Assembly (NCBI RefSeq): GCF_014635065.1
Contig: NZ_BMCG01000005.1
Span: 1 to 64,000 of the forward strand
Length of the DNA: 64,000 nucleotides
Direction of reading: 5' to 3'
Source of the DNA: Oxalicibacterium flavum
GTDB lineage: Bacteria; Pseudomonadota; Gammaproteobacteria; Burkholderiales; Burkholderiaceae_D
Shown here: positions 29,931 to 59,515 of the stretch, piece by piece
Numbering within the stretch: the stretch's first letter is position 1
Layout of the letters: every line of letters begins with the position of its first letter
The notes under the pieces: model-generated
The model's input: the letters and a program-made list of their open reading frames with translations, nothing else
Database searches by the model: none
Told to the model about the DNA's origin: nothing
Made by a program: the position numbers and the translations under genes

Positions 29931-29953
29931 GGGCTGCCTTCATCTCCTTTTGT

Positions 29954-38108: not shown

Positions 38109-38126
38109 GCTGTTCCATGACGGCAG

Positions 38127-38153
38127 AAGGCCCTCCATCGGAGGGCCTTTTTT
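38127..38153 (+). terminator. rho-independent terminator of the CsbD gene
   Basis: AAGGCCCTCC pairs with GGAGGGCCTT around ATC, followed by a T-run to 38153. It lies 18 bp after the stop codon. Confidence 0.93.
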
Positions 38154-38302
38154 GTGTTTGCTGCATCGTTGTTGCCGATGATAAATGTGGTTTATCAATC
38201 GATAGAAACGCCTGCCTTTCCAAGGCAGCCAGCCGGTTTTACACTGCGCCCTTCTCGTTCATCGGCCGCCCTGTGCGGCTTCACCAGCAGAGGAGTCAGG
38301 CA

Positions 38303-38587: not shown

Positions 38588-38633
38588 AATTCCGCCAAGC
38601 CATTGATATTTCACGTGATATTGGCGTCCGGCG

Positions 38634-38639
38634 TATAAT
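38634..38639 (+). promoter_or_regulatory. -10 element of a probable rhlE promoter
   Basis: A consensus TATAAT stands alone in GC-rich DNA about 210 bp upstream of rhlE. No good -35 hexamer lies 16-18 bp before it. If it is used, the message would have a leader of about 200 nucleotides, as is common for DEAD-box helicase genes with cold or autoregulatory control. Confidence 0.5.
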
Positions 38640-38851
38640 GTCGGCTGTTCTGTCGAGTGCGTAGTTTTGTGTGACAGCGCGGCCGAGAAATCTCCCCTCC
38701 CATGCGGCGGCCGTCCGCACATCCGCCTCGTCGCATCCGTCCGATTTTCCAGCTCATTCACCATTGTCGAAAGAGTCAGGTTTTGCGGGATTCGTCATGA
38801 AGCCGACACATGCGCGTGCTTCCATGGCCGTATCCCGACCTGCCAGCAAAC

Positions 38852-40339: not shown

Positions 40340-40363
40340 TCTTCGTCTGCGCAATCCATGAAG

Positions 40364-40387
40364 AAAGGGCGCCGTCGGCGCCCTTTT
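40364..40387. terminator. bidirectional terminator between rhlE and the glycan cluster
   Basis: AAAGGGCGCC pairs with GGCGCCCTTT around GTC, with TTTT at 40384-40387 on the right and A residues on the left. It serves rhlE and the leftward thirteen-gene glycan operon, whose last stop codon is at 40396. Confidence 0.88.
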
Positions 40388-40395
40388 CATTTTCG

Positions 40396-43300
40396 TCAGT
40401 CCGGCAGCCAGGCCTTGCGCCAGGCGATCAGGTGCTCGCCTTCCAGCATCCAGTCCTGCCTGACCACGCGCCGTAAGTCGTCCCCCATACGCGCCGTCGC
40501 ATCGAGATCGGCAAGATGCATGCGGATCGCCTCCACCCAGTCGTGGAAGCGATTCTTCACGCGCGTCGCCGGCAGGCTGGCGTCGTGGTAGCAGCGCACG
40601 TCGCTGCAGACGACGGGGAAGCCGCAGGCGCCGTATTCGAGCAGGCGCAGATTGCTCTTGCACTGGTTGAAGAGATTGTCTTCCACCGGCGCCAGCGCGA
40701 GATCGAGGTCGAGGCTGGCAAGTTTCTGCGGGTACTGCGCGATCGGCACGCCCGCATGGTATTCATGGACATAGGGCCGCAGTTTGGGCGGGCACATGCC
40801 GAAGAACACCCAGTCAACCTCGTTTGCCAGTTCCCGCACCACGTCGGCGATCATCTCCAGGTCGCCGCCATGGCTGGCGCTGCCGGCCCAGCCGACGCGC
40901 GGCTTGGCGGACGTGCGGCGGCGGCTCTGCAGGTCGCCCCACCAGTTTACGGGCAGGTGGTTCTCGATCACGCGGATGTCCGGATGCAGGCCGGCGAAGG
41001 CTTCCTTCAACGCTTCGGTCGAGACCACGAAGCGGTCCACCGTTGCCAGACCCTGACGCAGCAGCTTGAGAACGTCACGCGACATGTCCTGCCGGTACCT
41101 GTTCTTCATCGGCAGGTTGGGCAGGTAATCGTCGAGCTCATAGACCTTGAACGCTTGCGAGAAGGCCTTGATCCGGCGCATGGCCTCGATGCGTTCCGGC
41201 GCGGTTTGCCGTTGCAGCACGATGGCATCGGGCGCATGACGTTCGAGCGCGGCCGGCAGCAGCAGGTTGGCGGTGATGGCGACGTCGATCAGGCCGGCTT
41301 CGCCCATTGCCAGCGCCGGCTGGATGACGCGGTAATGGCCGCAGCCATACACGTCGGCATGATGCGCGAGCACGGTCGGCAGCGGATGCCAGCTCTGCAG
41401 CGGCCGCCACGCCAGTTGCGGTTCGGCCAGCCGGAATGCCTGTTCCTCCTGCAGCGAGAAGCCCGGATGATAGGACGGATCGCGCGCCAGCACGGGCAGC
41501 CAGCGCGCGTACATCGCGTCTTCCTCTGCCGTGCCGGCGGCGGTGTCGAGCGGCATGTCCATCAGCAGCGTGGCGCGCGGCGTCCAGACGTTCAGATAAC
41601 CGGCCTGCTGCAGCTTCAGGCACAGGTCGGCGTCGGCCCAGCGCGCCAGCAGCGCGTCTTCGTCGAAACCGCCGGCCTGCAGGAACAGTTCGCGCCGCAG
41701 CATCAGGCATTCGCCGCTGAGTGCCGCGTAGTTCTGGTCCAGCTGCAGGCGATGCATGTAGCCGTGGTCGTCGTGCGCCAGGCCCTCGAAGGCGCGGCCT
41801 ATCGGGCCGTGGAGGCCGAGCAGCAGTCCGGCATGGCGGATCTTGCCGTCGGCCGATAGCAGCTTGGCGCCGACCGCGCCGACCTCGGGCCGCAGCGCAT
41901 GATTGAGAAGCTGCTGCAGCCAGTCTTTGTGCAGTACGCCGGCGCCGTCTTCCAGCCACAGCAGGAAATCGCCGCGCGCCTGCTGTGCCGCCTCGTTGCG
42001 GATGCCGGAGCGTGAGCGGTTCGCATCGAAGCGCAGCACGCGCAGCTGTTCGCTGTTGAGCGCCGCGATGCCATCGAGCCAGTTGCGGATGGAAGACTCC
42101 TGATTGCCGTGATCGAGCAGCAGCACTTCGTAGTTGGCGTGACCGGTGTTTTCCAGCAGCGTCTCCAGGCAACGCTGGATTTGCGGCAGCCGGTCGCGCA
42201 CCGCGATCAGGATGCTGACCGCGGGCTCTACGTCATGGCCGTAGTCGATCTGGTGGCAGCCGGACAGGTGACTGCCGACGACCGCATGTTCGTAGCCGCG
42301 CCGCTGCAGGTGACGCTGGATGACGGCCTGTCGGTGTTCGGAATGTTGCGGTTCGCCGGCTGCCTCTGCCGGGCTCGCCGTCAACAGCGGTTCGGCGATG
42401 TGCGCGACGCTGCCCAGCCCGAACTGTTCGATCAGGCGCAACTGCCAGTCGAGTTCGAAGGCCTGTCCGCAGTCGGCCGCGAAGCCGCCCTGTTCGTGCA
42501 GCGTCGCGCGGCGGAACAGCCAGTGCGCCGACATCCCGGCCGGGGAACTCAACAGCAGGTCGAGATTCATGTCCGGCCGCAGCAGCACGCCGAGTTCATC
42601 GTCGCGATGGCGGGCCAGTTCGTCCGCATATGCGGCGTGACAGGTATCGGGCAGGGTGGGCAGATCGAGCGCCGCCATCAGCAGGCCGCTCGGCAGGAAC
42701 TCGCTGCCGGCCTGCGCCAGCAATACCCAGTCCGCCGCCGTTTCGGCAACGATGCGGTTGACGGTCTCCGCGCACGCATGGTCCGCGTTGAGGCGAACGA
42801 TCTTCGCACGTCCTTCGAGCGCTGGCAGCGCGGACGGCGAGCATACCCATGCTTCCACGTTGCGATAGAGATTGACCTGCTCCAGGTTGTCTAGCGTACG
42901 TGTGATCGCCTCCGCTGCGCCGCTGCGGTCGAGCACCGCTACGGCAATGCGCGGTCCGCCATTCAAGGCGGCAAGCCGCTGCTCGATCAGTTGTTGCTGG
43001 GCCGGAATCGGATAGCGTGCGCCTAGCCAGCTGAACAGCGGCACGCTGCCGAGGCCGGACGCGCGATGCAGCGCGGCCAGCAGGTCCACCGGCTTGAACA
43101 GGCGCGCCTTGAGCCGCGTGATCGGCGCGACCTGGACCAACCGGTTGTCGCCGCTCGTGCGGTACCAGCCGAGATCGCGGATCGCCTGACAGAAATCAGC
43201 ATGTCCTTTTTCGCCAATGCCCGGCTTGTCGCGGCCGGCTTGGCTGAACTGTTCGCGTGATACCCGAAAACGGGTAAGACGATCGGAAAGAAAAGCCAAG

Positions 43301-43932
43301 TCCCCGAGTTGCAGTAACTTCACATATATGGCCAAGTCCCCAACCCATGAAATCGGCTTCCCGTTGAGGAACATCAATTGCTCGCCAATAGCGAGCAGGT
43401 CATCTCGCCGACACAATACACAACTGGGCTCACCAATGAAGTTGAGCGTGTAGTCGGCGAGCAGCGACACCAGCTCGGGGCCGTTGACGAGTACATCCCC
43501 GCTGAACGGGGAACAGGTCGCCAGGATATCCGGCAATGCCTGCCCATCTTCATCAATCCGCTGCCGCCGGGCAGAGGCCAGGCGCACGTTGATATTGCCT
43601 TCCATCGCAGCGACCAAGGCAGCAACGCAACTTGGTTCCAGCACGTCATCGTCATGCAGAAACTTGACGTATTTGCCTTGGGCCAGGCTGATGGCACGAA
43701 TCGTATTCCGGCGCTCGCGCAACGGACTCTCGTTTCTGGCGTAGCGGATCGGCGTGGAAGTGGCTGCCTGCTTGCTCTCCACCAGAGTGGCTATCCGATC
43801 ATCCGGGCTGTCATCGCTGATGACCAGTTCCAGGTTCGGATAGGTCTGTGCGAGCGCGCTGTCCAACGCCTGTTCCAGATAGCGGAACTTGTACGCTGGG
43901 ATGACAATGCTCACCAACGGCATGCAGGTCAT
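40396..43932 (-). CDS. large multi-domain glycosyltransferase
   Basis: The 1178-residue cytosolic protein appears to contain four modules. A GT-A/GT2 module (about 1-240) opens with LVSIVIPAYKFRYLEQALDS and has the DDD motif in KFLHDDDVLEP. A second, degenerate GT2-like module spans about 330-520. A third GT2 module (about 565-810) opens AVSILIAVRDRLPQIQRCLE. A C-terminal GT-B/GT4-like module (about 860-1178) carries RVGWAGSASHGGDLEMIADV and a late LLEYGACGFPVVCSDV motif. Such proteins build surface polysaccharide or glycosylate proteins. It is the last gene of the nonulosonate operon and overlaps the NeuB gene by 4 bp, so it may transfer the cluster's sugar. Acceptor unknown. Confidence 0.8.
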   Translation of the reverse strand: MTCMPLVSIVIPAYKFRYLEQALDSALAQTYPNLELVISDDSPDDRIATLVESKQAATSTPIRYARNESPLRERRNTIRAISLAQGKYVKFLHDDDVLEPSCVAALVAAMEGNINVRLASARRQRIDEDGQALPDILATCSPFSGDVLVNGPELVSLLADYTLNFIGEPSCVLCRRDDLLAIGEQLMFLNGKPISWVGDLAIYVKLLQLGDLAFLSDRLTRFRVSREQFSQAGRDKPGIGEKGHADFCQAIRDLGWYRTSGDNRLVQVAPITRLKARLFKPVDLLAALHRASGLGSVPLFSWLGARYPIPAQQQLIEQRLAALNGGPRIAVAVLDRSGAAEAITRTLDNLEQVNLYRNVEAWVCSPSALPALEGRAKIVRLNADHACAETVNRIVAETAADWVLLAQAGSEFLPSGLLMAALDLPTLPDTCHAAYADELARHRDDELGVLLRPDMNLDLLLSSPAGMSAHWLFRRATLHEQGGFAADCGQAFELDWQLRLIEQFGLGSVAHIAEPLLTASPAEAAGEPQHSEHRQAVIQRHLQRRGYEHAVVGSHLSGCHQIDYGHDVEPAVSILIAVRDRLPQIQRCLETLLENTGHANYEVLLLDHGNQESSIRNWLDGIAALNSEQLRVLRFDANRSRSGIRNEAAQQARGDFLLWLEDGAGVLHKDWLQQLLNHALRPEVGAVGAKLLSADGKIRHAGLLLGLHGPIGRAFEGLAHDDHGYMHRLQLDQNYAALSGECLMLRRELFLQAGGFDEDALLARWADADLCLKLQQAGYLNVWTPRATLLMDMPLDTAAGTAEEDAMYARWLPVLARDPSYHPGFSLQEEQAFRLAEPQLAWRPLQSWHPLPTVLAHHADVYGCGHYRVIQPALAMGEAGLIDVAITANLLLPAALERHAPDAIVLQRQTAPERIEAMRRIKAFSQAFKVYELDDYLPNLPMKNRYRQDMSRDVLKLLRQGLATVDRFVVSTEALKEAFAGLHPDIRVIENHLPVNWWGDLQSRRRTSAKPRVGWAGSASHGGDLEMIADVVRELANEVDWVFFGMCPPKLRPYVHEYHAGVPIAQYPQKLASLDLDLALAPVEDNLFNQCKSNLRLLEYGACGFPVVCSDVRCYHDASLPATRVKNRFHDWVEAIRMHLADLDATARMGDDLRRVVRQDWMLEGEHLIAWRKAWLPD

Positions 43933-45488
43933 GAACTCAAGCCTCTTGCTGCAACACGATATTTATGATGTTCGCTTGGCTTTATGCGTTTCTGCTCATC
44001 TCCAACGATTCGCTCGGCAAGGCGAATATCCTTGACGAAATTGGCGAAATCATCATTAACCAAATCCATAGCTACTTCGTCAAAGTGCGCCCATGATACT
44101 GTCCCATATTTGACATGCTTTTCAATCATTTGTGCGCCTGCAGCCACAGCCATTTGCGAACACAAGCTGCCTATATCATGACTGGAAAATCCTGGAATTA
44201 TGCGGGAGTCGCGCCGGCTAGCATTGTAATAGTGGCGAACCACACCGATTTGGGTGTCTTCTCTACGCGATGGATAAGTTGACGTGCACTGCAGAAGATA
44301 GATGCGCCGGGCCTTTGAAAACTGGCTCAGGATGTATGCTTCATAGGACTCGTCTGTATATCCGGTTGAAATCACAAGATCACCGGAGAATTCGCGACTA
44401 ACCGCGTCCAAAAAATGACGATGCTCGGATATGGTTGACGGCAGCTTGATCATGTCGGCTCCCAAATCCAGCATGTACCTGAATGATTGATAATCCAGAA
44501 CTGATGCGAACCAACGTATTCCTATGCGTTTGCAGAAAGAATCTACCCATTGAAATTGCTCTTTGGTGAGCTCCAGTCCCAGTCTGTAATCGCGAAAAGT
44601 CTTTCCGAAAGGTGAGGCGTATGGCTTTTCCAACTCCTCCGCAGAATAAAAAGTTTCAACATCGCGCTTTTGCAACTTGATGCAATTTGCGCCGGCATGC
44701 TTAGCCGCAAGGATCATTGACTCAAGTCGTTCCATGTCGCCGAAGTGATTAGTGGTCAATTCGGCGACGATCTGTACTTTATATTTTTGATCCTCGTCCG
44801 ACTGCAAAATCGATTGTTTGCTTCCTGTCACCTTTTCGCGCAGCAGATGGTTGAAAGCCTCAACGGAATAAAAGCTGTAAGACTTCTCGCCAACGTGGAT
44901 TACATCCACTGCTAGTCGTTCTCGTTCCTGAAGAATGTGCTCAAGAAGCTCTTCCTGGGCTCTGACAGCATGTTCTAGCAGTTCTGGCTCTTCACGCCGT
45001 GAAATATTGGTGATGTGTTGCGACCAACCGTGACGGGTAGTGAAGTCGAAACCAACCAAAAACACTTTTTTGCGTCGGCCAGCCTGCCGACCGATCTGAT
45101 CAGCAAGCTTGAGTGCACTAATGACGATTGCATGCTCTATGTGGAAATCTTCGGAAAAGAAACGATCCAACAGAAAGTCGGCAGTATGTGGCGTATATGG
45201 CACATACTCGGCATGGATGCTGGCCCGAGCCTTGGCAATGAGACGATCAGTCACGTATAGCCGGCACTGTGGTCCATACTGCTCAAGCGAATCCAGCACC
45301 CAACCATGGTGGAAAACCGCTACGTCACCCGCATGGATGATCTCCGAATCGTTGACATTAATGACAATGAAATCATCCAGCACTGACAGGTCCATCAAGT
45401 CGGCACTGGGTCCCTTGCCGAGGATAACGATGTCCTGCTCTTGCTTGTCATGCAAAGAGTCGGCCAGAGCTTTTTTCCAGTTCATCAA
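43929..45488 (-). CDS. N-acylneuraminate synthase (NeuB) domain fused to a Rossmann-like N-terminal domain
   Basis: The 519-residue protein is a fusion. Residues about 236-500 form a NeuB-type TIM barrel, with IVAELTTNHFGDMERLESMI, GFSSHD (metal His near 437) and AGAQMIEKHVK. NeuB enzymes condense phosphoenolpyruvate with a six-carbon amino sugar to make sialic or other nonulosonic acids. The C-terminal antifreeze-like (SAF) domain that normally completes the active site is absent. Residues about 15-215 form another domain starting DIVILGKGPSADLMDLS and containing RRKKVFLVGFDFT, reminiscent of DUF115/GT42-like folds. It overlaps both neighbours by 4 bp and has lower G+C than the flanks. Confidence 0.8.
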   Translation of the reverse strand: MMNWKKALADSLHDKQEQDIVILGKGPSADLMDLSVLDDFIVINVNDSEIIHAGDVAVFHHGWVLDSLEQYGPQCRLYVTDRLIAKARASIHAEYVPYTPHTADFLLDRFFSEDFHIEHAIVISALKLADQIGRQAGRRKKVFLVGFDFTTRHGWSQHITNISRREEPELLEHAVRAQEELLEHILQERERLAVDVIHVGEKSYSFYSVEAFNHLLREKVTGSKQSILQSDEDQKYKVQIVAELTTNHFGDMERLESMILAAKHAGANCIKLQKRDVETFYSAEELEKPYASPFGKTFRDYRLGLELTKEQFQWVDSFCKRIGIRWFASVLDYQSFRYMLDLGADMIKLPSTISEHRHFLDAVSREFSGDLVISTGYTDESYEAYILSQFSKARRIYLLQCTSTYPSRREDTQIGVVRHYYNASRRDSRIIPGFSSHDIGSLCSQMAVAAGAQMIEKHVKYGTVSWAHFDEVAMDLVNDDFANFVKDIRLAERIVGDEQKRIKPSEHHKYRVAARGLSS

Positions 45489-46189
45489 GAGATCTTCCCG
45501 TGACGTGAGAGACAGACATGGTATTTACGCACAGGTAAAAGCAACTGGCCACGGTAAGGCTGTCCGTCCACTTGTGCAGAGCATCCGTGTTCAAGTGCCA
45601 GATTCAGGCCCGGCAAAACATCCCAGGCGTTGGCACCCCGAATGTTTTCGAAACGAGAGAAACTACCGCGTACGGCAGCCAGCATGTTGTACATGGAGCA
45701 GCCTATTACCCGATATTCATAACCACCCGGCTGGCGTGCCAGATCATCCTTGCTCAAGGAAGACGACAACCCCATGATGCGTGAACGAAAGGTCCGCAAT
45801 GAATCACCGGTTACAAGCCGGTCATTCAATTCAGGCAGATAGATGCCGGAAGCCAAATGCTGCCCTTTTTGGAAAATGGATACTCCCACTCCCCATTCCT
45901 TCAACCCGGAAACGAAGTTCTCGGTTCCGTCTATCGGATCAAGAATTACATAACTACCCAACGGATCAAGCATATCCGCATTAAACGGGGCCAATTCTTC
46001 GGAGAGTAATAAGAATCCCGGCAAATTTTGCTGAAGATAACCAAGAACAAGCTCCTGCACCAGCAAGTCGCCTTTACTGACCGGGCTTTCGTCTTCTTTT
46101 TGTTCGAACTGGTCACGTAATGCCAGTATTGAAGCCAGCATGTTCTCGATCTTGGCAAACATGGCGAGAATGTGGGTTCTCATTTTCAA
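45485..46189 (-). CDS. inositol monophosphatase-family phosphatase
   Basis: The 234-residue protein carries the lithium-sensitive phosphatase metal motifs: SEELAP (about 63-68), [10 protein letters not shown] (about 83-92) and [18 protein letters not shown] (about 185-202). These Mg-dependent enzymes remove phosphate from inositol phosphates, sugar phosphates or nucleotides. In this operon a role in dephosphorylating a nonulosonate or sugar intermediate is plausible (inference from position only). It overlaps the upstream acetyltransferase and the downstream NeuB gene by 4 bp each, and shares their lower G+C. Confidence 0.8.
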
Positions 46190-47052
46190 TCTTTTCCAAT
46201 CAGATCATCAGGGAAAGTCAGGGTGCGAGGCTGCCATACGTCAATTTCATGGTTGGCAATGGTGGCCTCCAACTGGCCCAAAAATTCGATTGGGGCCTGC
46301 ATGTTCATCGCTTGCAAATCAGCGAATGAATATTCCCACCAATGACTCTTCAACAAGCGCTGTATCACCTTTTCACTGAAGCGCATGCGCTGTACCTTGG
46401 CAGGCACTCCTGCGACGATTGTGTATGGTGGTACATCGCGAGTAACCACTGCATTGGAAGCAAGTATTGCCCCGGTTCCCACTGAAATGCCCATACTTAA
46501 CACTACATTTTCACCAATCCACACGTCATGACCTATTGTTGGATATGTTTTTCCCAAACGGGGATCGAACACACGGCGAGATGGTGCAGCGTTGGCCGCA
46601 AGCTCCCTCTCGATGAGTGAATGAATGCTTGTGGTTGCCTTGACCCCACTTGGCTGGAAGAATGCAACTGAGGTAGACACCCAATCAGTCGGGTGAGCAA
46701 AGTCGAGGAAGCGCAGGCCTTTGCCGATAGAACAATAACGCCCAACGCTCAAGCCCTCCGGTAACGACGAATGTGAATAGGATGCAGCCCCCATCGTGCA
46801 GAAGCCCCCCTCCGCAGTCCATGGGTTGGGACCATACAGCCCCCCATGGAATGCACAGGGACCCTCAACTACGATTCGGCGACCAAAGGTATATTCACTA
46901 AGCTTGGAAAGCCAACCGCCATTTCCATCATGGTTTTCTATCGAGCTATCGGTGGAGATGCCCACCTCTCGCAGCTTTTCAAGCCAAGCCGGAGTAACCG
47001 CAACAGTCAGCGGAAATGGCAATTTCGAAGATGCGATTACTGCGGGCTTCAT
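46186..47052 (-). CDS. CatB-type left-handed beta-helix acetyltransferase
   Basis: The 288-residue protein has hexapeptide repeats characteristic of left-handed beta-helix acyltransferases. They are clearest in [16 protein letters not shown] and [20 protein letters not shown], followed by [18 protein letters not shown], the typical end of CatB/xenobiotic acetyltransferases. Residues 1-90 are an additional N-terminal part of unknown role. It probably O- or N-acetylates a sugar with acetyl-CoA. It is coupled by 4-bp overlaps to neuA upstream and to the phosphatase downstream. G+C is lower than in the flanks. Confidence 0.78.
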
Positions 47053-47735
47053 ATGCCTTTTTTCGCAACGGGGGAGTTTCGTGCGGTATACAGCAACTGT
47101 GCCAATTCGAACTCCTCCATGGTATCGATATCGGTACCTTCGATCATCGAAGTTTCCATGAAATACGGATTGTCACCTGTTTGAAACCGATTGATCAGCA
47201 TCGACTTCTTGCTGGCCAACCACAATGCACAATTCATCTGGTACAGCGGTCGCAGCTTCTGCGAAAAGCTTGCCCATACCCCAAATTGAAAATTCAATGG
47301 CAGCATGTCGGGCCCGAGAAAATAGTGCTGGAACCGGGTTACGGTCATCAGCGAATCATGTTCACTCTGATCGGAAAGTTGCTGCACTGCCTCATCATAA
47401 CGACTGAACAACGGAGATGTGGGCGGGCACCATGCCACCAGCGTCTCATCATCTTCGGGAAGTTGCTGCAAAACGCCGGTTAGAACCTCACTCCATGGCG
47501 TCTCATCCAAGCATAGGCGGGTAGGGCGATGCAGGAAGTTGGCACCGAATTTTTCCGCGATAAGGCGGCCTTTTTCAGAGTCGCTTGAAACGTAGACTGC
47601 ATCAAACACGTTTGATGCAAGACACTGTCGAACCTTGATTTCCAGCAAAGACATTCCTCCCTCAAAGAGACGAAAATTCTTTTCCGGAACACGTCTGGAG
47701 TTACCTTTTGTGGGGATGATGGCAATGGTTCTCAT
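47049..47735 (-). CDS. neuA: acylneuraminate cytidylyltransferase (CMP-nonulosonate synthetase)
   Basis: The 228-residue enzyme activates a nonulosonic acid as the CMP-sugar using CTP. The N-terminal nucleotide-binding motif is [20 protein letters not shown] split over residues 4-23. Later elements are [18 protein letters not shown] and [15 protein letters not shown], typical of the family. The ATG at 47735 is the natural start because the motif lies directly after it; the frame above it is lower-quality and crosses the gene spacer. It overlaps the downstream acetyltransferase by 4 bp. Its presence is the strongest evidence that the cluster makes a CMP-activated nine-carbon sugar. Confidence 0.87.
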
Positions 47736-47772
47736 GTGACTTTGATTTTTTTTAAAATGTAATCTAAGCGTG

Positions 47773-49044
47773 TCACCCGACCTTACGTTGCCAGAAATCA
47801 TCAATGCTCACATCCATACTGCTAATTTCGGAGGCTCGCGATAATGCATCCTCGCCATCAGAAAATAGCCTGTTCCAGTTTTGCGATGACCATCCATAGC
47901 TTGTGTCACGCTGAACATTGAATAACGGAACATCGCGCAAAGAGTACCACCCCATCTGTGGCTCCAATGCAAGCAAGCGCGACTGGGCAAATCGATAGGA
48001 ATCTTGCAGCGTATCAGCAGGGAAGCCGAGCTGATGAGCATAGTGCGACCACAGGTAACACTCACCTGCATGATGGCGGAGTTCCTGGAAATGGTTTTTA
48101 CCCGACTGGGTCAGACGTGGAGTATCCACTTCGATACGGTGCCTAGGGTCCTCAGGGACAGACCACAGATCCAGCATGTCCTTGGTTCTGGCGACCATGG
48201 CCTTTTCGCTAAAATGAAAAGGAATGTATTGCCAAGCCCCTCTCAGAGAGAGAGCTATTTTCCCCTTATTTCTTCCTTTCACAAAGAACTTGTCGACGAC
48301 GGATTGAATGGATCCCGTCAAAAAGTTGTCGCTACGACAGCGTATGGCAAATTCTATATTTTTCTCGGCAAGATGTTCCAGACTGATGCGTGCCGAGCGA
48401 AATACATAGTTGCGATGATCCTTCGGCCCTCGATGCTCGGGCTGCGGAACTAGAATCAACTCATCCAACCAGGGGCGGCAGCGATCAAGTAATTCGTCAG
48501 GCAAATGATCCCAGGTCGTCATGCATTGATAGGCATCGGGGAAACGCAACCGGTTCCAGGCCAGAACGGCAGGAGTACATGGAAATGCCAATCCTTGAAC
48601 AAAAATACCGAATTTGGGAGTGTGGCCGAGTTTCCGTTGAAATGACATTCGAGGGACCATCTCCGCCACGGATTGGTATTCACGGATAACAGTAGCGTTG
48701 TCGTAATTGAAGTCCATTGCCACTACGGCGCGAAAATCGCTGTATTGGTCAACGATTTGATGGATGACCTCAGAGTGGTGATTGGAGAATATGACTATCA
48801 GTACATTCTCTGGGGATTCCTTCAGTAAAGAATCCGGGGGTTTTACCTCTACTCCATACAGATGCTTCCCCTGGTTTTCCGGGTTGGGACAGATTGTATA
48901 TTCGAGTTTGAGGCTCTGGCCAAGCAGAGGGTAATAATCACGAAAATGCTGTCCAGCCCCCCATCCGATGACGCGTAGGTTTGATGTATCCAGGTCTGGG
49001 TACTTGAGCCGTGCGCGCTCGATGGAGCCTGTAACGATTGCCAT
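47773..49044 (-). CDS. WavE-like glycosyltransferase
   Basis: The 423-residue protein has an N-terminal Rossmann-like region (about 1-130; LRVIGWGAGQHFRDYYPLL). A second part resembles the WavE lipopolysaccharide-synthesis family (FGIFVQGLAFPCTPAVLAWN, IEFAIRCRSDNFLTG). WavE proteins are putative glycosyltransferases of outer-core or surface glycans. The ATG at 49044 is preferred over an in-frame GTG at 49056 because the only Shine-Dalgarno-like GGAG lies too close to the GTG. The gene is low in G+C and sits between neuA and an acyltransferase. Confidence 0.65.
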   Translation of the reverse strand: MAIVTGSIERARLKYPDLDTSNLRVIGWGAGQHFRDYYPLLGQSLKLEYTICPNPENQGKHLYGVEVKPPDSLLKESPENVLIVIFSNHHSEVIHQIVDQYSDFRAVVAMDFNYDNATVIREYQSVAEMVPRMSFQRKLGHTPKFGIFVQGLAFPCTPAVLAWNRLRFPDAYQCMTTWDHLPDELLDRCRPWLDELILVPQPEHRGPKDHRNYVFRSARISLEHLAEKNIEFAIRCRSDNFLTGSIQSVVDKFFVKGRNKGKIALSLRGAWQYIPFHFSEKAMVARTKDMLDLWSVPEDPRHRIEVDTPRLTQSGKNHFQELRHHAGECYLWSHYAHQLGFPADTLQDSYRFAQSRLLALEPQMGWYSLRDVPLFNVQRDTSYGWSSQNWNRLFSDGEDALSRASEISSMDVSIDDFWQRKVG

Positions 49045-49092
49045 TGGTGAATACACTCCAATTGAAATAGGTTGTTACTCGAAAAATTTGAA

Positions 49093-49710
49093 TCAGTTCA
49101 GAATCCTGGCGCCTTCGGGCATCAGTGAGTCATGGAAAGAGTAGTCAGGAAGGGCTGCTGGAAGAGTCCCAGGCAGTAGCCATTCACAGTGACGTCCGAT
49201 CCTTGCATGATTCGGGATAATGCTGGCCGGGCCGAGCGTAGTGCCTCTTCCAATTTCGACACCAACTCCTAATTGCGCACCCGCCTGTAAGGTCGCGCAG
49301 CTCCCGACTTTTGTATTTGCGCTAATGAGAACCTGCGGGTCCAGCCAAGTACCTGTTCCCAAGCGACAGCCAAGTCCCAGATTGCAGCCGGCGCCAACAT
49401 GCACATTACCCAGCAACTTGATGTCGGAAGCAACGATTGCGTATGGCGAGACAATATTCAGCAATGCATAGCCGGCAAGTCGCACATCCGCAATCAATTT
49501 ATGTCGGGTCTGATTGACTGCTCGTTCATCCAGGGCGACGAACACATCAAAATCGGTGCAAGGGTAATTCTGGAAAATTTCATCAAGGTCAAAATTGAAG
49601 CCATCGCTTGTGACCAACTCGACATGCAGGAAATCCATGCCGGCATCCTTGGCAGTCAGCATCGCTCGCTCAAAGACAAGGCCCTGCCCGACGATAAGTG
49701 GCCGTTTCAT
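49093..49710 (-). CDS. NeuD-like left-handed beta-helix sugar acyltransferase
   Basis: The 205-residue protein combines an N-terminal nucleotide-sugar-binding-like part (MKRPLIVGQGLVFERAML) with C-terminal hexapeptide repeats (for example GNVHVGAGCNLGLGCRLGTG and LGVGVEIGRGTTLGPASIIP). This is the NeuD/PglD layout of enzymes that acylate amino sugars or nonulosonates. The start overlaps the Rieske oxygenase stop by 4 bp; the longer frame above is noise inside that gene. With the ACP/KAS-III pair upstream, its acyl donor could be an acyl-ACP or acyl-CoA. That is inference. Confidence 0.75.
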   Translation of the reverse strand: MKRPLIVGQGLVFERAMLTAKDAGMDFLHVELVTSDGFNFDLDEIFQNYPCTDFDVFVALDERAVNQTRHKLIADVRLAGYALLNIVSPYAIVASDIKLLGNVHVGAGCNLGLGCRLGTGTWLDPQVLISANTKVGSCATLQAGAQLGVGVEIGRGTTLGPASIIPNHARIGRHCEWLLPGTLPAALPDYSFHDSLMPEGARILN

Positions 49711-50846
49711 GCCGCATCCCCCAGCACCTGCGAGCGGTACCACATATGCTGGTGCACCAATGGCATCTCGTATTCCCCATGAGTGAAGCGGGGCGAGTGG
49801 CTCCCCATGTTCTCTTGCAAGCGCTCGAGTATCACGGTGTCCTCGGCAATCACGCTGCGCTCTGCCCGAATCAACGCCGACAGCAAGGGCACGAAATCGG
49901 TGCGCGCATCCTTGCGCCGTGCCGTCATCATCCACAGATGGTAGTCGGTGATCCCCGGTGCTACTGGATCGTACTGCTGCAACAGAAAATGCTCGCCACG
50001 CACGCTGCAGAAGTTGACGTTCGGGTAAAGGAACCAGTTGTAATAAACGTGCTCGTCCCGGTACAGGTCACACAGCGGCCGGAACCAGCTTTGATGTGGC
50101 TTGAGGGCTGCTCGCGTCGCGTAACTGAGTGATGCCAGAGATGGCAGGGGAGTTTCCCCGCGGATCATCGGCTTGACCTGTGAAGGCGTATCGGGCTCCC
50201 CGGCAAGGGCCCGAATTGGCGTTGCCATTTCCGGGGAAAAGCTGCGCGGATGAACGAACGGGACATGATTGTAGTCCTTGACGTTCTCCATGTTGAGCTT
50301 CCAGTTGTAATGCGCACGATGACAGCTGTAGATTACCTGGCTATCAAGGTGCGCCGACACCTGTTCCAACTCGCGCAGCATTTCCGGGGAGAACTGTTCC
50401 TCCAGCGGCAGCGGCGTATCGGACAGGTTGACGAACAACAGCGTACCCAATTCATGCAGATGCAGCTTTTTCAGACAGATATGTTCGCGTTCGGCGGCGG
50501 TGAACTGATACAGGCCGGGGTTGGGCAAGCCATGCAATTCCCCCTCCGGGCCAAATGACCAGGCGTGATAGGGGCAGACCATCGGACGCTTGCCGTGGCT
50601 GTCCAATTGAATGGCCGAGAGTCGATGCGGGCATTGATTCACGAAGGCACGAATGCCGGCATCGGTACGCTGCACCAATACCGGAACCCCTGCCACGTTG
50701 CGGGTAAAGAAGCGGTTTTTCTCAGCCACCATCGAGGCGAAGCCAACGAATGTCCACAATTTGCCGAACAGGTTCTGCCGCTCCAGCTCCAGTGTGGCGG
50801 GGCTAGTGTAATGCTCGATATTCAGGGCGTGACGTGACATGGACAT
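49707..50846 (-). CDS. Rieske-type oxygenase, ring-hydroxylating alpha-subunit type
   Basis: The 379-residue protein has a complete Rieske 2Fe-2S motif: Cys72 and His74 in NQCPHRLSA, Cys91 and His94 in VCPYHAWS. The mononuclear iron motif ENVKDYNHVPFVH gives Asp191, His194 and His199, and a late AEDTVILERLQ supplies a likely third ligand. Such enzymes hydroxylate or demethylate substrates with O2 and electrons from a reductase. No ferredoxin or reductase gene is adjacent. Its place inside a sugar operon, coupled by a 4-bp overlap to an acyltransferase, is unusual and suggests it tailors the sugar or its acyl group. Catabolic aromatic genes are absent here. Confidence 0.85.
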   Translation of the reverse strand: MSMSRHALNIEHYTSPATLELERQNLFGKLWTFVGFASMVAEKNRFFTRNVAGVPVLVQRTDAGIRAFVNQCPHRLSAIQLDSHGKRPMVCPYHAWSFGPEGELHGLPNPGLYQFTAAEREHICLKKLHLHELGTLLFVNLSDTPLPLEEQFSPEMLRELEQVSAHLDSQVIYSCHRAHYNWKLNMENVKDYNHVPFVHPRSFSPEMATPIRALAGEPDTPSQVKPMIRGETPLPSLASLSYATRAALKPHQSWFRPLCDLYRDEHVYYNWFLYPNVNFCSVRGEHFLLQQYDPVAPGITDYHLWMMTARRKDARTDFVPLLSALIRAERSVIAEDTVILERLQENMGSHSPRFTHGEYEMPLVHQHMWYRSQVLGDAA

Positions 50847-50871
50847 CCATCATGTAAGAAACAGGCCGGGC

Positions 50872-51504
50872 TCACTTCTGGAACACCACGCGGGCGGGGT
50901 TCCCGGCCACGGTGGCACCGGCAGCAACATCCTTGAACACCACCGCGCCCATGCCGACCACGGCTCCGGCACCGATGCGCACTCCTCGCGCAATCAATGC
51001 ACCGCTGTGGATCTGCGCGCCGTCTTCAACATGGACATGCCCGGCCAAGGTACAGCGCGGGCCAATGTGGACGAAATCACCGATTACGACATCGTGGCCG
51101 AGCAGTGCTTCCTGGTCGATAAAGCTGTATGCGCCGATCCGGCAATCCACGCCGCAACTGACGTTATAGCCAAAAAAAGTAGGGCCGTACTGGGTGCGCG
51201 CTCCCAGGATGCAGCGGGTGCGCACAGAAATGAACTCGGCATTCTTTGCAAGCAAAGGAGCAAGCTGCTTTTGGCGACTGGCAGGATCGCCGATTGCAGC
51301 TACGAATAACTGATTGGATTCCGGGACGAACGTTTCCGGATACCCTAACCATGGGTAATACAAGGATTCGGGGACGACATCGGCGCCTCGTTCGTCGAGA
51401 AAGCCGTCTATCACCCAGTCCACGCCATGAGAAAAGTCTATCTGCAACTGAGCCAGCGCCTGACGTCCCAGTCCGCCGGCTCCCACGATCACAATTTTTT
51501 TCAT
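50872..51504 (-). CDS. NeuD/PglD-family sugar O/N-acyltransferase
   Basis: The 210-residue protein begins with the nucleotide-binding-like motif KKIVIVGAGGLGRQALAQL. It continues into left-handed beta-helix repeats (GHDVVIGDFVHIGPRCTLAG, GVRIGAGAVVGMGAVVFKDV) and ends with GATVAGNPARVV. This is the classical NeuD/PglD architecture, which acylates nonulosonic acids or amino sugars. It lies 26 bp downstream of the SDR-gene unit's stop and 26 bp before the Rieske gene in the same operon. It is the second such enzyme here, so two positions of the sugar may be acylated. Confidence 0.84.
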   Translation of the reverse strand: MKKIVIVGAGGLGRQALAQLQIDFSHGVDWVIDGFLDERGADVVPESLYYPWLGYPETFVPESNQLFVAAIGDPASRQKQLAPLLAKNAEFISVRTRCILGARTQYGPTFFGYNVSCGVDCRIGAYSFIDQEALLGHDVVIGDFVHIGPRCTLAGHVHVEDGAQIHSGALIARGVRIGAGAVVGMGAVVFKDVAAGATVAGNPARVVFQK

Positions 51505-51522
51505 TGGCTCGTGTTCCTTGCT

Positions 51523-52296
51523 TCAATTGATGGTTAAGCCGCCGTCCATCACCAGCGTGGTACCGGTGATCCATCGGCTGGCGCCGGAAAGCATGAATAT
51601 CGCTGCATTGGCTACGTCGGCAGGGGTGCCGAAGCCCAGAGGATGATTGGCGCGTTGCGCTTCCATTGAATCCGAACCGGCTGCAAGCATTGCCGCATCG
51701 AATAGCGGCGTCTGTACCAACGAGGGTGACAGACAATTGACCCGGATGCCCCGTTTTGCCACTTCCACCGCTAGGCAGCGTGCAATGGCAAGCAGCGCCG
51801 CCTTGGTGCCGGAATAGGCACCGACACCGGCTACGCCGATATGTGCGGCGATGGAGGCAATGAACAAAATCGAGCCATCGGCGGCAATCAGATTGCGCTT
51901 GAGCAATGCCTGGGTCAGCAGCATCGGGCTGTCCACGTTGATGGATTGCACTTCGCGCAGGTGCGCTTCGCTCATCATCCGTACCGGGCACAGCCGGGAA
52001 ATGCCAGCGCTGTGTACCAGCCCATGCATTTGTTGATCGAGAGATGCCACCAGCGCAGCGCGTTGTGCGCTGTCGGTCAAATCTGCCTGAAATGCGGTGT
52101 GCGGCAGATCGGAGATCGTGCGCAATGCATCCAGACTGCCTGCCAGGCGCTCTGTGTCACGGCCGGTAATGATGAGTTCAGCGCCCATCTTCGCGCAACT
52201 CTGCGCGATTTCCAGCCCCAGTCCTGACGTCGCACCGGTAACCAGAATACGTTTTCCGGACAGGCTAAAAGGGTTGAAAGACGATTGATCGTTCAT
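51523..52296 (-). CDS. short-chain dehydrogenase/reductase, FabG-like
   Basis: The 257-residue SDR has the cofactor motif GATSGLGLEIA (about 21-31), the NAG-like element HSAGIS, the catalytic Ser in ILFIASIAAH, and the YxxxK pair in YSGTKAA. The end SRWITGTTLVMDGGLTIN is typical of FabG-like enzymes. Next to an ACP and a KAS-III it could reduce a 3-oxoacyl-ACP to a 3-hydroxyacyl-ACP. Oxidation or reduction of a sugar ring is the alternative. It starts 27 bp after the KAS-III stop. Confidence 0.85.
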   Translation of the reverse strand: MNDQSSFNPFSLSGKRILVTGATSGLGLEIAQSCAKMGAELIITGRDTERLAGSLDALRTISDLPHTAFQADLTDSAQRAALVASLDQQMHGLVHSAGISRLCPVRMMSEAHLREVQSINVDSPMLLTQALLKRNLIAADGSILFIASIAAHIGVAGVGAYSGTKAALLAIARCLAVEVAKRGIRVNCLSPSLVQTPLFDAAMLAAGSDSMEAQRANHPLGFGTPADVANAAIFMLSGASRWITGTTLVMDGGLTIN

Positions 52297-52323
52297 TGAA
52301 TCTGGTGTTTTCGAAAGGCGGTG

Positions 52324-53364
52324 TCAGGATTCGATCAGGTCGGGAAAAACAGCGCCCTCAATGTCGATCAGCAGGGTACCCCACGACAGGCCGATACCAA
52401 AGCCGGACAGCAGCACGCGTTTTCTGTTCGATTCCAGTTCCTTGTTGATACGTGCCGTGATGGTGATAGGCAGGGAGGCACCACTGGTATTGCCGAAGTC
52501 ACGCAATGTCGAAGGTACCTTCTCTACCGGCAGGGCAAGTTTTTTGCGGATTGTTTCGTTGATCATGCGGTTGGCCTGATGGAAGATGAAGTAATCGACT
52601 TCATCCTTGCCGATGTTGGCATAGGCAAGCAATTTTTCAACGGCAGGTGGCACACGCTGTGTCGAAAAGCTCAACACGGCCGGGCCGTCGAGCACGAGGT
52701 CGGTGCCACGGTGCCAGTGATCGTTCTCATCTTCGCGGAACGGCACCAGATGCTGCATGCCGACAGGTTCGCGATGACCGCCGACCGGCAACATGATGGC
52801 CTTGTAGCCGCTGCCGTCACTGTTGAGATCGAAGTACATCGGTGGCGCGTTCTCGTCGAATTCCAGGGCTGTTGCCGTGCCTGCATCCGAGAAAATCGGA
52901 TTGTCCAATGAGGCGCTGCGATCACCAACGAGCAGTAGTCCTTTTTTGATGCCACCGGCCGAAATCATCGAACCCAGCAGGTGGATGCCGAACGGATAGG
53001 CCGAGCAACCGAGGTTGACGTCGAAGGCGACCGTGGCATGGGACAGACCGAGCCGGTCCTGCAGGATGATGGCGGTGGCCGGAATCGGATAGTCGGGCGA
53101 CTGCGTGACGACGATCAGCGCGTCGATCTCGTCCTTTTGCCATTGCAGGCTGTCGAGCAGTTTTTCCGTCGCCTCGAGGGCGAGATCGGAAAAGCATTGC
53201 CACTCCGGTGCCATGCGCCGCGTTTCGATGCCGATGTTGCGTACCAGCCGTTCGCGTTCGGCACGAATCTGCGGCTTGCAGTCGGTCAGGTTGGAGACGA
53301 TGCGTTTGGGAACGCAGCTCGCCATGCCGGCGAAGCGCACGTTTTTCAGCGTGGAAGTGGCCAT
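52324..53364 (-). CDS. 3-oxoacyl-ACP synthase III-type enzyme
   Basis: The 346-residue thiolase-fold enzyme carries the KAS-III catalytic triad: Cys120 in NLGCSAYPFG, His262 in FIFHQANRMI and Asn292 in GNTSGASLP. KAS-III enzymes condense acyl-CoA with malonyl-ACP. Paired with a dedicated ACP 8 bp upstream, it is probably not the housekeeping FabH; it may make a short acyl chain for decoration of a sugar. The ATG at 53364 is supported by the position of the family N-terminus; the frame above it reads through the ACP gene. Similar ACP/KAS-III/SDR sets occur in flagellin-glycosylation islands of pseudomonads. Confidence 0.87.
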   Translation of the reverse strand: MATSTLKNVRFAGMASCVPKRIVSNLTDCKPQIRAERERLVRNIGIETRRMAPEWQCFSDLALEATEKLLDSLQWQKDEIDALIVVTQSPDYPIPATAIILQDRLGLSHATVAFDVNLGCSAYPFGIHLLGSMISAGGIKKGLLLVGDRSASLDNPIFSDAGTATALEFDENAPPMYFDLNSDGSGYKAIMLPVGGHREPVGMQHLVPFREDENDHWHRGTDLVLDGPAVLSFSTQRVPPAVEKLLAYANIGKDEVDYFIFHQANRMINETIRKKLALPVEKVPSTLRDFGNTSGASLPITITARINKELESNRKRVLLSGFGIGLSWGTLLIDIEGAVFPDLIES

Positions 53365-53371
53365 GTCGGGT

Positions 53372-53596
53372 TCAGCCCAGCAGTTGATAGAGGTCCTGGA
53401 TGGTCTCGGCCTTCGCCAGGTGTTCGCCGGTGATGGTCTTGCCGTATTCCATGTCGAACATGACGATGACGCCAAGCGCTGCCAGCGAATCCCATTCCGG
53501 CAGGCTCTCGAGCCTGGTTTCGGCCGTCACGGCGACCGGCTCCTGGAAGTCTACTGCTTCGTTGAATTTCTCGATGAATGTTTCTACGTTATCCAT
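53372..53596 (-). CDS. acyl carrier protein
   Basis: The 74-residue acidic protein has the phosphopantetheine site Ser37 in PEWDSLAALG and the expected four-helix ACP pattern. It begins inside the last 8 bp of the aminotransferase gene and ends 8 bp before the KAS-III gene. It is a specialised ACP, not the fatty-acid-synthesis AcpP, judging by sequence and context. It would carry the acyl chain to be passed to one of the NeuD-like acyltransferases (inference). Confidence 0.88.
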   Translation of the reverse strand: MDNVETFIEKFNEAVDFQEPVAVTAETRLESLPEWDSLAALGVIVMFDMEYGKTITGEHLAKAETIQDLYQLLG

Positions 53597-54767
53597 GATG
53601 GCTATCCAGGGTGAGTGATGGTTGATTGCTGTGTGCGGTCGCCAGGCCGACGGCCTCTGCGACACGGTTGATGTCGTCCTGCGTCATGAAGCTCGAAAAC
53701 GGCAGGCCGATCATGCCGGACGCCACCGATTCCGCCACGGGCACGGGCATCTTGATCGTTGGCGCCACCTTGGCCGCGTGCTGATGCAGCAGGGGCTGAT
53801 ACCAGCGGCGCGTGGCGATGTTACTGGCATGGCAAAGTTGTTCCAGCTGCGCGCGCGCCTCCTGCGCCATGCGCACGCAGAAGATGGTCGGCGCGGCGAG
53901 TGTGACGCCGGCCTGCCATTGCAGGTGTTCGCCGCAGCTGGCATCCAGCGTCTGCCGGTAGGCGCGATGGATCTGTTGCCGCAGCGCGGCCTGCGCCGGC
54001 CAGTGGTCGAGGCTCGCATGCGCGACGGCGGCATGGTATTCGGAAAGCTTGGCATTGCTGCCGACCTGCGACAGGTGGCCGACCGGGAGTCCCGCATGCG
54101 TGTCGAGGTTGATGCCGAAATTACTGAGCTGGCGCACCTCGGCCACGAGATCGCGGTCGCCGCTGGCGACGAAGCCGCCTTCGCCGGCCGCCAGCGACTT
54201 GGTTGCATGCATGCTATAGACCACCGGCACATCGGCCGCTTCTGCCCACTGGCTGCCGAATGCGCCGGCGGCATCGATCACCACGGCCAGTCCGGTCTGC
54301 TGCCGGAAGGCGCTCCAGCGCTGCGTATCCTGCGGCTGCCCGAAGGCGGCGACCGTGAGCACCGCCCGGGCGCCGGTCCTGGCTGCGGCTTCGGCGGCGA
54401 TCTCCGGCGTGATGAGCCAGCTGTCGGCGTCGATGTCGGCGATCACGGGCACATGGCCCGCGCGCAGGATGGCGGTCAGCGAGGCGACGAAGGTTAGCGC
54501 CGGCACCACCACGCCGCTGCCGGGCGGCAGGCCCAGGCTGTGCAGCGTGAGTTCCAGTCCCAGGGTGGCGCTGCTGGTGGTGGCGACGTGGACCGGATGC
54601 GCGGCATGTTCTGCGAACAGGCTTGTCAGTCTTGCTTCAAGCGCGTGGTTGAGCGGGCCGAAGTTGGAATAGTGGCGGTTGCGGTCGATCTGTTCGAGAT
54701 AGGGCGCCAGCGCATGCCGGTCGGGCAAGTGGGGTACCAGCAGGGGAATCGGACGCGGATCGGTCAT
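53589..54767 (-). CDS. DegT/DnrJ/EryC1-family sugar aminotransferase
   Basis: The 392-residue PLP enzyme transfers an amino group, usually from glutamate, to a nucleotide keto-sugar. The PLP Lys is near residue 190 in VVYSMHATKSLAAGEGG. The phosphate-binding region reads VATTSSATLGLELTL, and the Asp that contacts the pyridine nitrogen lies in VVIDAAGAFGS. The ATG at 54767 fits the family N-terminus; no gene-like sequence extends above it. It is the first gene of the thirteen-gene operon. The amino group it installs would be the natural acceptor for the ACP-made acyl chain. Confidence 0.85.
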   Translation of the reverse strand: MTDPRPIPLLVPHLPDRHALAPYLEQIDRNRHYSNFGPLNHALEARLTSLFAEHAAHPVHVATTSSATLGLELTLHSLGLPPGSGVVVPALTFVASLTAILRAGHVPVIADIDADSWLITPEIAAEAAARTGARAVLTVAAFGQPQDTQRWSAFRQQTGLAVVIDAAGAFGSQWAEAADVPVVYSMHATKSLAAGEGGFVASGDRDLVAEVRQLSNFGINLDTHAGLPVGHLSQVGSNAKLSEYHAAVAHASLDHWPAQAALRQQIHRAYRQTLDASCGEHLQWQAGVTLAAPTIFCVRMAQEARAQLEQLCHASNIATRRWYQPLLHQHAAKVAPTIKMPVPVAESVASGMIGLPFSSFMTQDDINRVAEAVGLATAHSNQPSLTLDSHHG

Positions 54768-55091
54768 GGTGCGCAGGAAGTGGCGGGGATTGATGCGTGG
54801 TCGGACCCGGCCGTCTTCTCTGCCTTGCGCGAACGTGTGCGGGCCTTCAGCGCATTGGCCGGATTGCACGCTTGCCTGCCGGCAGGACAGGCGTCGAATG
54901 ATGCTCCGGAATCTGCGTATGTCTCTGCCACGTTCGCTGCCCTGTTTTGTCTCGTAATATCGCCGCTTTTTGTTCGAACAAGCCTAATATGCGGCCCCGG
55001 ACGCGTCAAGCGAGAGGAGGGGCACTTCTTGCCCCCTGTTCTTGCTATCGGACGCAAATGCGGAAAGTGAAGGGTGGTGCACCAATCCGGA
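54768..55091. other. 324-bp spacer, probable promoter region of the glycan operon
   Basis: No gene-like frame is present. The right half (about 54950-55000) is A+T-rich and contains a 12-bp palindrome at 54970-54981. The leftward aminotransferase operon probably starts here, although no convincing -35/-10 pair was found. The leftward gluQ gene ends at the right edge without a clear terminator hairpin. Confidence 0.5.
54970..54981. promoter_or_regulatory. palindrome upstream of the glycan operon
   Basis: TTGTTCGAACAA is a perfect 12-bp palindrome about 200 bp before the aminotransferase start, in an A+T-rich patch. It is a possible operator; no regulator gene adjoins the operon. Confidence 0.4.
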
Positions 55092-55982: not shown

Positions 55983-55988
55983 CGTCGA

Positions 55989-57794: not shown

Positions 57795-59515
<1,721 letters not shown>

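Follow-up and report, generated by a model that had tools for sequence, protein, structure and literature searches.

A thirteen-gene locus of Oxalicibacterium flavum combines a viosamine-type module carrying a Rieske oxygenase gene with a mobile NeuB fusion cassette for a predicted ulosonate

In Pseudomonas syringae pv. tabaci, a viosamine island serves flagellin, and its proposed product is dTDP-N-(3-hydroxybutyryl)-2-O-methylviosamine (PMC3927599). As described there, the island has seven open reading frames (ORFs), among them VioA (372 aa), an acyl carrier protein (ACP, 69 aa), VioS (338 aa), VioR (253 aa), VioB (213 aa) and VioT (1173 aa), and a Rieske oxygenase is not listed among the seven. 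Since the island of Pta 6605 sits between the gs and hk genes (PMC3927599), proximity to flagellin is not a strict feature of such islands. The ulosonate Kdn (2-keto-3-deoxynononic acid) is synthesized from mannose 6-phosphate (Man-6-P) and phosphoenolpyruvate (PEP) (PMC6200933; PMC7845648). For the group 3 capsules of Escherichia coli, a survey names CMP-sialic acid, 'myco-inositol' and CMP-N-acetylneuraminic acid (CMP-Neu5Ac) as possible precursors (PMC10433991); another paper places group 3 loci on plasmids, and the words 'sialic', 'neuraminate' and 'nonulosonic' are absent from its main text (PMC13171598). Here we describe a block of thirteen genes within a stretch of 64,000 nucleotides of Oxalicibacterium flavum (the window), in which genes of both kinds stand together.

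We favour, with moderate confidence, the reading that this block holds two modules whose products join in a single surface glycan, with flagellin as its most likely carrier. Module A consists of a sugar aminotransferase, an ACP, a beta-ketoacyl-ACP synthase III (KAS-III), a short-chain dehydrogenase/reductase (SDR), the acyltransferase-like NeuD1, a Rieske oxygenase, a second hexapeptide protein (NeuD2) and a transferase of 1178 aa; module B consists of NeuA, a CatB-like acetyltransferase, a phosphatase of the inositol-monophosphatase (IMP) family and a NeuB fusion (Table 1). Every substrate and product named below is one that we infer. Two things are new: a Rieske gene is tied to a viosamine-type module, and the IMP-NeuB fusion forms a mobile cassette, the product of which is only predicted.

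Each module was found without the other. In stretches of 10-20 kb read around 11 relatives of module A (one contig, L043, has 9,972 bases), no NeuB or IMP-family phosphatase gene was matched. The IMP-NeuB fusion stood without ACP or Rieske genes at all 30 full-length loci other than the window, and KAS was present at two of the 31 (the window and one more). No second copy of the whole hybrid was found: among 349 genomes of the order and 369 of the class, a full-length NeuB fusion occurred only in O. flavum, whose genome (3.2 Mb, 9 contigs) has a single NeuB. NeuB matches were detected in 16 order genomes (E ≤ 1e-20) and 10 class genomes (E ≤ 1e-25), O. flavum included; outside O. flavum the alignment was confined to the NeuB half. 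Composition divides the thirteen-gene block as well. The GC content is 0.673 in the aminotransferase gene, 0.647 in that of the big transferase and 0.64-0.67 in the flanks. It is lower across the ACP-Rieske genes (0.56-0.59) and lowest across the NeuD2-NeuB genes (0.481-0.529). As the middle of a sister locus (L039) is also lower in GC (0.47-0.57), the whole middle is a variable region, with the cassette as its latest filling.

The earlier note on this DNA had described thirteen co-directional genes, many of them overlapping by 4 bp. All thirteen are indeed minus-strand ORFs, running from 54767 to 40396, but only three of the 12 junctions are 4-bp overlaps; one overlap is of 8 bp and one of 1 bp, and the remaining 7 are gaps of 2-37 bp, values that depend on the start codons chosen in the analysis. 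The dedicated ACP/KAS-III/SDR set and the CMP-ulosonate genes were present as stated, and most gene identities held by Pfam, that of the WavE-like protein only weakly. Catalytic motifs were intact in the KAS-III, ACP, SDR, Rieske and IMP proteins (motif check). Terminator-like sites in the region numbered 13, against 14.1 expected by chance, promoter-like sites likewise showed no excess, and no repeats of at least 25 bp were found at the locus edges within 38000-56500.

Table 1. Positions in the window of the thirteen genes and of a hairpin past the operon end.
Feature	Position	Strand	Basis
DegT/DnrJ-type sugar aminotransferase	53589..54767	-	PF01041 216 bits; VioA-like role inferred
Acyl carrier protein, 74 aa	53372..53596	-	weak NCBIfam ACP matches; DSL serine 36
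Beta-ketoacyl-ACP synthase III, VioS-like role	52324..53364	-	PF08541, PF08545; Cys120/His262/Asn292
SDR, 3-oxoacyl-ACP reductase type, VioR-like role	51523..52296	-	PF13561; YxxxK
NeuD1, NeuD/PglB/VioB-type N-acyltransferase	50872..51504	-	TIGR03570 149 bits vs cut-off 161; conserved His
Rieske non-haem iron oxygenase	49707..50846	-	PF00355 + PF00848; CxH/CxxH, DxxHxxxxH
NeuD2, hexapeptide protein	49093..49710	-	without conserved His of NeuD1
Possible WavE-like transferase, weak	47773..49056	-	PF07507 E 0.0083, 15.8 bits vs cut-off 27
NeuA, CMP-ulosonate synthetase	47049..47735	-	PF02348
CatB-like O-acetyltransferase	46186..47052	-	hexapeptide matches
IMP-family phosphatase, proposed ulosonate-phosphate phosphatase	45485..46183	-	PF00459; DPIDGT
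NeuB fusion, 518 aa	43929..45485	-	PF03102 133 bits, residues 257-499
1178-aa GT2-GT2-type glycosyltransferase, VioT/FgtA-like	40396..43932	-	Pfam
Terminator-like hairpin	40363..40387	+	past operon end; 11-pair stem, T-rich tail

The viosamine-type gene set (aminotransferase, ACP, KAS-III, SDR and NeuD-like protein) is complete in the window, and the link to flagellin-glycosylation islands drawn in the earlier note finds its match in the P. syringae gene set, as far as described (PMC3927599). Because the same set is proposed to make acylated viosamine in P. syringae, the acyl chain is most likely carried by a nucleoside diphosphate (NDP)-amino sugar. In the proposed route, the aminotransferase would make an NDP-4-amino-4,6-dideoxy sugar, KAS-III, ACP and SDR would supply a short 3-hydroxyacyl-ACP, and NeuD1 would place the acyl group on the amino group of the sugar. 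The Rieske enzyme may then oxidise either the sugar or its acyl chain; NeuD2 may act as a non-canonical hexapeptide partner, and the 1178-aa transferase would attach the sugar. The best NCBIfam match of the aminotransferase was DesI (155 bits, cut-off 650), a Pfam search with the ACP gave no match, and one RmlB gene over cut-off is present in the O. flavum genome. No methyltransferase (vioM counterpart) is among the window's thirteen genes. The two NeuD-like acyltransferases of the earlier note are both hexapeptide proteins, but the second lacks the aligned histidine of NeuD1, which we take to be catalytic; this histidine was present in 7 of 8 NeuD1 proteins and absent from all 7 NeuD2 proteins.

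The metal ligands of the Rieske protein were conserved across the window protein and eight aligned relatives (including the L041 sequence, with inexact ends), and its closest relative of solved structure matched at E 1e-20. Its Pfam domains are Rieske, Ring_hydroxyl_A and VanA_C only; judged on domains, this is not the architecture of a CMAH-type CMP-sialate hydroxylase. Our guess is that the enzyme acts on the N-acyl sugar made by its own operon, oxidising it. In the open-licence literature no Rieske step was found described for flagellin glycans or together with a nonulosonic acid, and we know of no case in flagellin glycans in which a Rieske enzyme hydroxylates an ACP-derived N-acyl sugar.

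The Rieske gene belongs to a recurrent neighbourhood. Each of the 12 clusters read, counting the window, has a Rieske gene at most 5 kb from KAS (KAS identity 61-100%); in two of them (G133 and G116) this Rieske gene is more distant in sequence (27% and 24%). Of the co-occurrence that the earlier note had proposed to search for, the Rieske and KAS part was found in these clusters; the NeuB fusion joins ACP and Rieske in the window only. A Rieske match was obtained in 21 of 145 family genomes; neighbours were read at 12 of these loci, and SDR, NeuD1 and NeuD2 adjoin the Rieske gene at seven, O. flavum included. The run SDR-NeuD1-Rieske-NeuD2 occurs in nine relatives, six from the family genomes and three from the order genomes (G025, G072 and G137, by KAS search). 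Direct tblastn located the Rieske gene of L123 (G116) and the L121 module, and the window SDR is 66-67% identical to the sole SDR of L119 and of L123. At E ≤ 1e-35 the window Rieske was matched only in O. flavum among the class genomes, and its best plasmid matches were 26-28% identical.

Some neighbours of these clusters are recorded here in their own right. The L119 island (G133, another family of the order) has two fliC-like genes, ACP, KAS-III, SDR, an FkbM methyltransferase, Rieske and nucleotide-sugar genes. Beside module A, L120:18025-19692 (+) encodes a 555-aa protein with metallo-beta-lactamase-type and GT2 domains; L122 has a counterpart, followed by a cytidylyltransferase gene.

Within the genus, KAS was found at E ≤ 1e-60 in 4 of 13 members, O. 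flavum among them. The three relatives (L038-L040) match the window at 71-88% (aminotransferase), 85-91% (ACP), 88-92% (KAS) and 65-80% (big transferase). They also carry SDR, NeuD1, Rieske and NeuD2, and gluQ-, LysR- and pirin-like genes flank them on the same side as in the window (flanking genes here and below, namely helicase, gluQ, LysR, pirin and kdsA, were named from sequences judged by eye). L038-L040 have no NeuB or IMP gene. At the cassette position they hold methyltransferases (L039 also a pyruvyltransferase) and a protein that resembles KrkA over its first 370 residues, with a three-sequence profile at E 4e-25 and QxxxD aligned; a single sister protein gave no match to the PDB at E 0.01. 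KrkA is described as a GT140 retaining Kdo (3-deoxy-D-manno-octulosonic acid) transferase (PMC12887879). A broken NeuA-like remnant between the methyltransferase genes of L038 (G437), at 3452-3526 (-) (25 residues, 48%, tblastn E 4e-4), hints that a CMP-ulosonate gene may once have been there too. On the two-module reading, the locus would swap its acidic-sugar gene set, a Kdo-transferase-like protein in the sisters and the ulosonate cassette in the window. Two observations touch on the Kdo-transferase-like proteins: in L040 a KdsA-like gene lies beside the locus, in the region where the window also has one (below), and the KAS cluster of G116, from another family, encodes a 926-aa protein with a C-terminal methyltransferase domain that is 47% identical to the GT140-like protein of L040 (L123:14415-17195, +).

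Module B is predicted to be an acquired ulosonate cassette. We scanned 84,980 species genomes and obtained 36 loci, from Gammaproteobacteria, Alphaproteobacteria, Hydrogenophilus and Bacteroidota. Of these, 26 are full-length fusions; adding the window and four loci of Enterobacteriaceae brings the number to 31. Left out were L056 (the record of L058), L060 (cassette identical to that of L055), L053 and L054, and the stand-alone, partial or distant NeuBs of L082-L084, L087, L089 and L092-L096. An origin from phages was rejected, as viral contigs gave just two NeuB-only matches at 28% (L053, L054). Of 87 plasmid records matched by the NeuB fusion, three (two E. coli records and one Enterobacter plasmid) were 59-60% identical and covered at least 80% of its length; these matches and that of E. 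coli ET350 lie in polysaccharide-export loci with rml genes. The window's gene order recurs in E. coli KE47 (NeuA 58%, CatB 41%, IMP 58%, NeuB 60%) and in Hydrogenophilus (NeuA 52%, CatB 50%, IMP 58%, NeuB 53%), CatB holding the same position there (L058 41%, L064 50%). One E. coli version of the fusion matched 4 of 5,426 E. coli genomes by megablast, 3 over at least 80%, a lower bound because KE47 was not among the matches. We assigned L055, L057, L058 and L059 to group 3 ourselves, on the basis of two features that PMC10433991 describes, the rml block and location on plasmids. The WavE-like protein of the window had no relative among the loci compared.

An IMP-family gene lies directly upstream of the fusion at all 31 loci, and residues E62, D82, D85, W187 and D188 were invariant in 29 aligned IMP proteins. 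NeuA was detected at 19 of the 31 by similarity within 8 kb and at 25 when proteins were clustered over the whole stretch; relatives of NeuC and WecB were found at none (the NeuC, WecB and HAD queries were identified by eye). Thus, the gene set is that of a phosphorylated Kdn-type route: a NeuB-type synthase, a phosphatase and a CMP transferase, with no NDP-sugar genes of its own. Such a set, recurring in diverse hosts, suggests that the substrate is phosphorylated and drawn from central metabolism, and by analogy we propose a phosphorylated ulosonate route, most simply a Kdn-like one. The NeuB part, for which Pfam gave no SAF domain, would condense PEP with a phosphorylated aldose, Man-6-P being the simplest candidate; the phosphatase would remove the phosphate from the ulosonate, NeuA would form the CMP-ulosonate and CatB would O-acetylate. 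Attachment might fall to the fused N-terminal domain, the WavE-like protein or the big transferase. Two GMP_PMI genes over cut-off in the O. flavum genome make a supply of Man-6-P possible; G437 has none. The sugar cannot be named from NeuB and NeuA, since NeuB scored 114 bits against a Neu5Ac synthase cut-off of 400 and 106 against a PseI cut-off of 340, and NeuA 93 against a PseF cut-off of 206. These scores and the missing NeuC relatives do not fit the Neu5Ac pathway (NeuC-NeuB-NeuA), nor do the PseI score and a PseB-like gene that occurs, weakly, at just one of the 31 loci, not the window, fit the pseudaminic and legionaminic acid pathways.

The fusion combines an N-terminal domain (residues ~1-230) with a SAF-less NeuB (~237-505). 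AlphaFold predicted the N-terminal domain with a pLDDT (predicted local distance difference test) of 90.8 and a pTM (predicted template modelling score) of 0.89, and the full length with 85.5 and 0.58. In fold searches the C-terminal half matched NeuB and PseI. The N-terminal half matched nothing in the PDB at E ≤ 0.001, and among viral models 11 entries at that threshold, none informatively named; a GT29 protein ranked 14th in this list, and MptE-like proteins 21st and 24th. Of 25 members examined with Pfam, 3 matched the MptE-like family, weakly (best E 0.015), and profile comparison of the domain with the sister proteins gave a probability of 7%. Residue D147 is among the invariant ones of the domain. 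The sole match of a PDB-sequence profile search, ribonuclease Z (E 0.12), was taken as chance. At best, the domain may be distantly MptE/GT29-like, and 'sialyltransferase-like' stays a suspicion because fold and profile searches gave no significant match in the PDB. Since stand-alone NeuBs exist without it, the domain adds a function, which need not be that of a transferase, as a GT29-type sialyltransferase gene lies downstream of the fusion in Bacteroidota (L071 and L090 by Pfam, L072 by similarity). Only tentatively do we go further and propose that the fusion is a bifunctional ulosonate synthase/ulosonosyltransferase in a widespread, undescribed route (sugar phosphate plus PEP, IMP-family ulosonate phosphatase, NeuA), whose cassette moves among the capsule and flagellin-type loci found in Proteobacteria and Bacteroidota and here lies inside an acyl-amino-sugar locus with a Rieske enzyme hydroxylating the ACP-derived N-acyl sugar.

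Several observations weigh against two modules serving a flagellin glycan. The likeness of module A to the vio sets of P. syringae and a-type P. aeruginosa is one of roles and sizes taken from description only. An aminotransferase of at least 51% identity is present in only 7 of the 11 relatives, and in L041, L042, L043 and L119 the matches are 25-31% or absent, which weakens the viosamine reading there. The window Rieske is an outgroup at 31-35% to relatives that share 42-81% among themselves, and G437, with module A and no NeuB, has no RmlB over cut-off, so a dTDP-based sugar may not be used in every case. The cassette scan used patterns built from four IMP-linked members (IMP was not in the query), and its sample was therefore not blind to IMP linkage; some stretches are short (L064 7.8 kb, L076 8.6 kb). 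Stand-alone NeuBs (49-58% alike, no N-terminal domain) have an adjacent IMP gene in only three of five cases. Finally, the flagellin of O. flavum lies on contig C2 and the window on C5, so a flagellin target in this species is one that we infer, and L038-L040 likewise have the locus away from flagellin.

This position within the genus would suit a glycan made by both modules and carried by lipopolysaccharide, capsule or another surface polymer. We regard that as unlikely, even though at other sites the cassette is part of polysaccharide-export loci and the capsule of E. coli K13 is described as being made by GT140 enzymes (PMC12887879). The thirteen genes include none for export or for a polymerase, the module A cluster of G298 lies 7-10 kb from fliC, and fliC-like genes of G133 lie 4-5 kb from KAS. 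Moreover, residues 301-1178 of the big transferase are 48% identical over 884 columns to a gene that lies, on a P. aeruginosa megaplasmid, between flgL and B-type fliC; this was the sole match at E ≤ 1e-60 among 72,556 plasmid records.

Another explanation, which we consider rather improbable, is that ordinary sialic acid is made by the NeuB fusion from a free sugar, for instance N-acetylmannosamine, with IMP serving a different step, for example an inositol-containing precursor. Many bacterial NeuB pathways are reported to use unphosphorylated substrates (PMC6200933), the capsule survey names CMP-sialic acid and 'myco-inositol' as distinct possible precursors (PMC10433991), and two of the five stand-alone NeuBs have no adjacent IMP gene. 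The survey's inositol call may derive from this very IMP gene. The unbroken adjacency of IMP to the fusion across Proteobacteria and Bacteroidota, the lack of NeuC and WecB relatives in the 31 loci and the score far below the Neu5Ac synthase cut-off argue against a free sugar. So does the O. flavum genome, in which the one Epimerase_2 gene, WecB-like by eye, is in another locus. As a side observation, the stand-alone NeuBs of L082 and L093 (Actinoplanes and an Anammoxibacter metagenome-assembled genome) are 53-58% identical to the NeuB half of the fusion, with no IMP match in the stretch. The single pathway of the earlier note, a CMP-ulosonic acid with an ACP-made, Rieske-hydroxylated acyl chain on its amino group, would fit thirteen tightly spaced co-directional genes and the action of NeuD proteins on ulosonate precursors in other systems, yet it is very unlikely given modules that occur apart, E. 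coli cassette loci without amino-sugar genes of the cassette's own, and ACP/KAS sets that serve NDP-viosamine in P. syringae, as described (PMC3927599).

Around the operon, a KdsA-like Kdo-8-phosphate synthase gene (by eye) lies about 3 kb upstream at 57795-58754 (-); KdsA and NeuB are fold relatives. Farther away, a run of large genes at 20423-33334 (-) has the look of trehalose/glycogen metabolism (by eye).

If two modules of the proposed kind are at work, NeuB proteins labelled sialic acid synthases, including those of E. coli and Enterobacter capsule plasmids, would gain a testable product class. The phosphatase and sialate genes of capsule loci may then have been taken for separate precursors, as we read PMC10433991. 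Viosamine-type islands would gain an oxygenase step, linked to KAS-III in each of the clusters read. The earlier note had known of no described pathway with this combination of genes; the module A set is of the established viosamine kind, whereas for the Rieske step, and for the fusion or an IMP-NeuB pair as a pathway, no description was found in the open-licence literature.

Compared with known systems, the locus thus has several partial counterparts. The b-type flagellin locus of P. aeruginosa contains the flgL-fliC gene that matches residues 301-1178 of the window transferase; unlike the window, it has no ACP, KAS, Rieske or NeuB among its listed features. KrkA, the GT140 Kdo transferase, has a like domain in L038-L040 at the cassette position, absent from the window. 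The E. coli group 3 (3B-like) capsule clusters L055, L057, L058 and L059 have the IMP-NeuB fusion pair and NeuA beside ABC export and rml genes; they differ from the window in having no ACP, KAS or Rieske and in their glycosyltransferases (27-28%). Like the cassette, the Kdn pathway described for Bacteroides thetaiotaomicron and Prymnesium parvum has a synthase, a phosphatase and a CMP transferase and no NDP-sugar enzymes (PMC6200933). Unlike the Kdn routes known to us, the cassette has an IMP-family phosphatase and a fused, SAF-less NeuB, and its use of Man-6-P is a prediction. The Kdn phosphatase of B. thetaiotaomicron belongs to the HAD family. With the viosamine island of P. syringae and the glycosylation island of P. 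aeruginosa PAK, as described, the window shares the aminotransferase, ACP, KAS-III, SDR, NeuD-like acyltransferase and a transferase of ~1173 aa (PMC3927599); it differs from them in that flagellar genes are not adjacent and in that it adds the Rieske oxygenase, NeuD2 and the ulosonate cassette.

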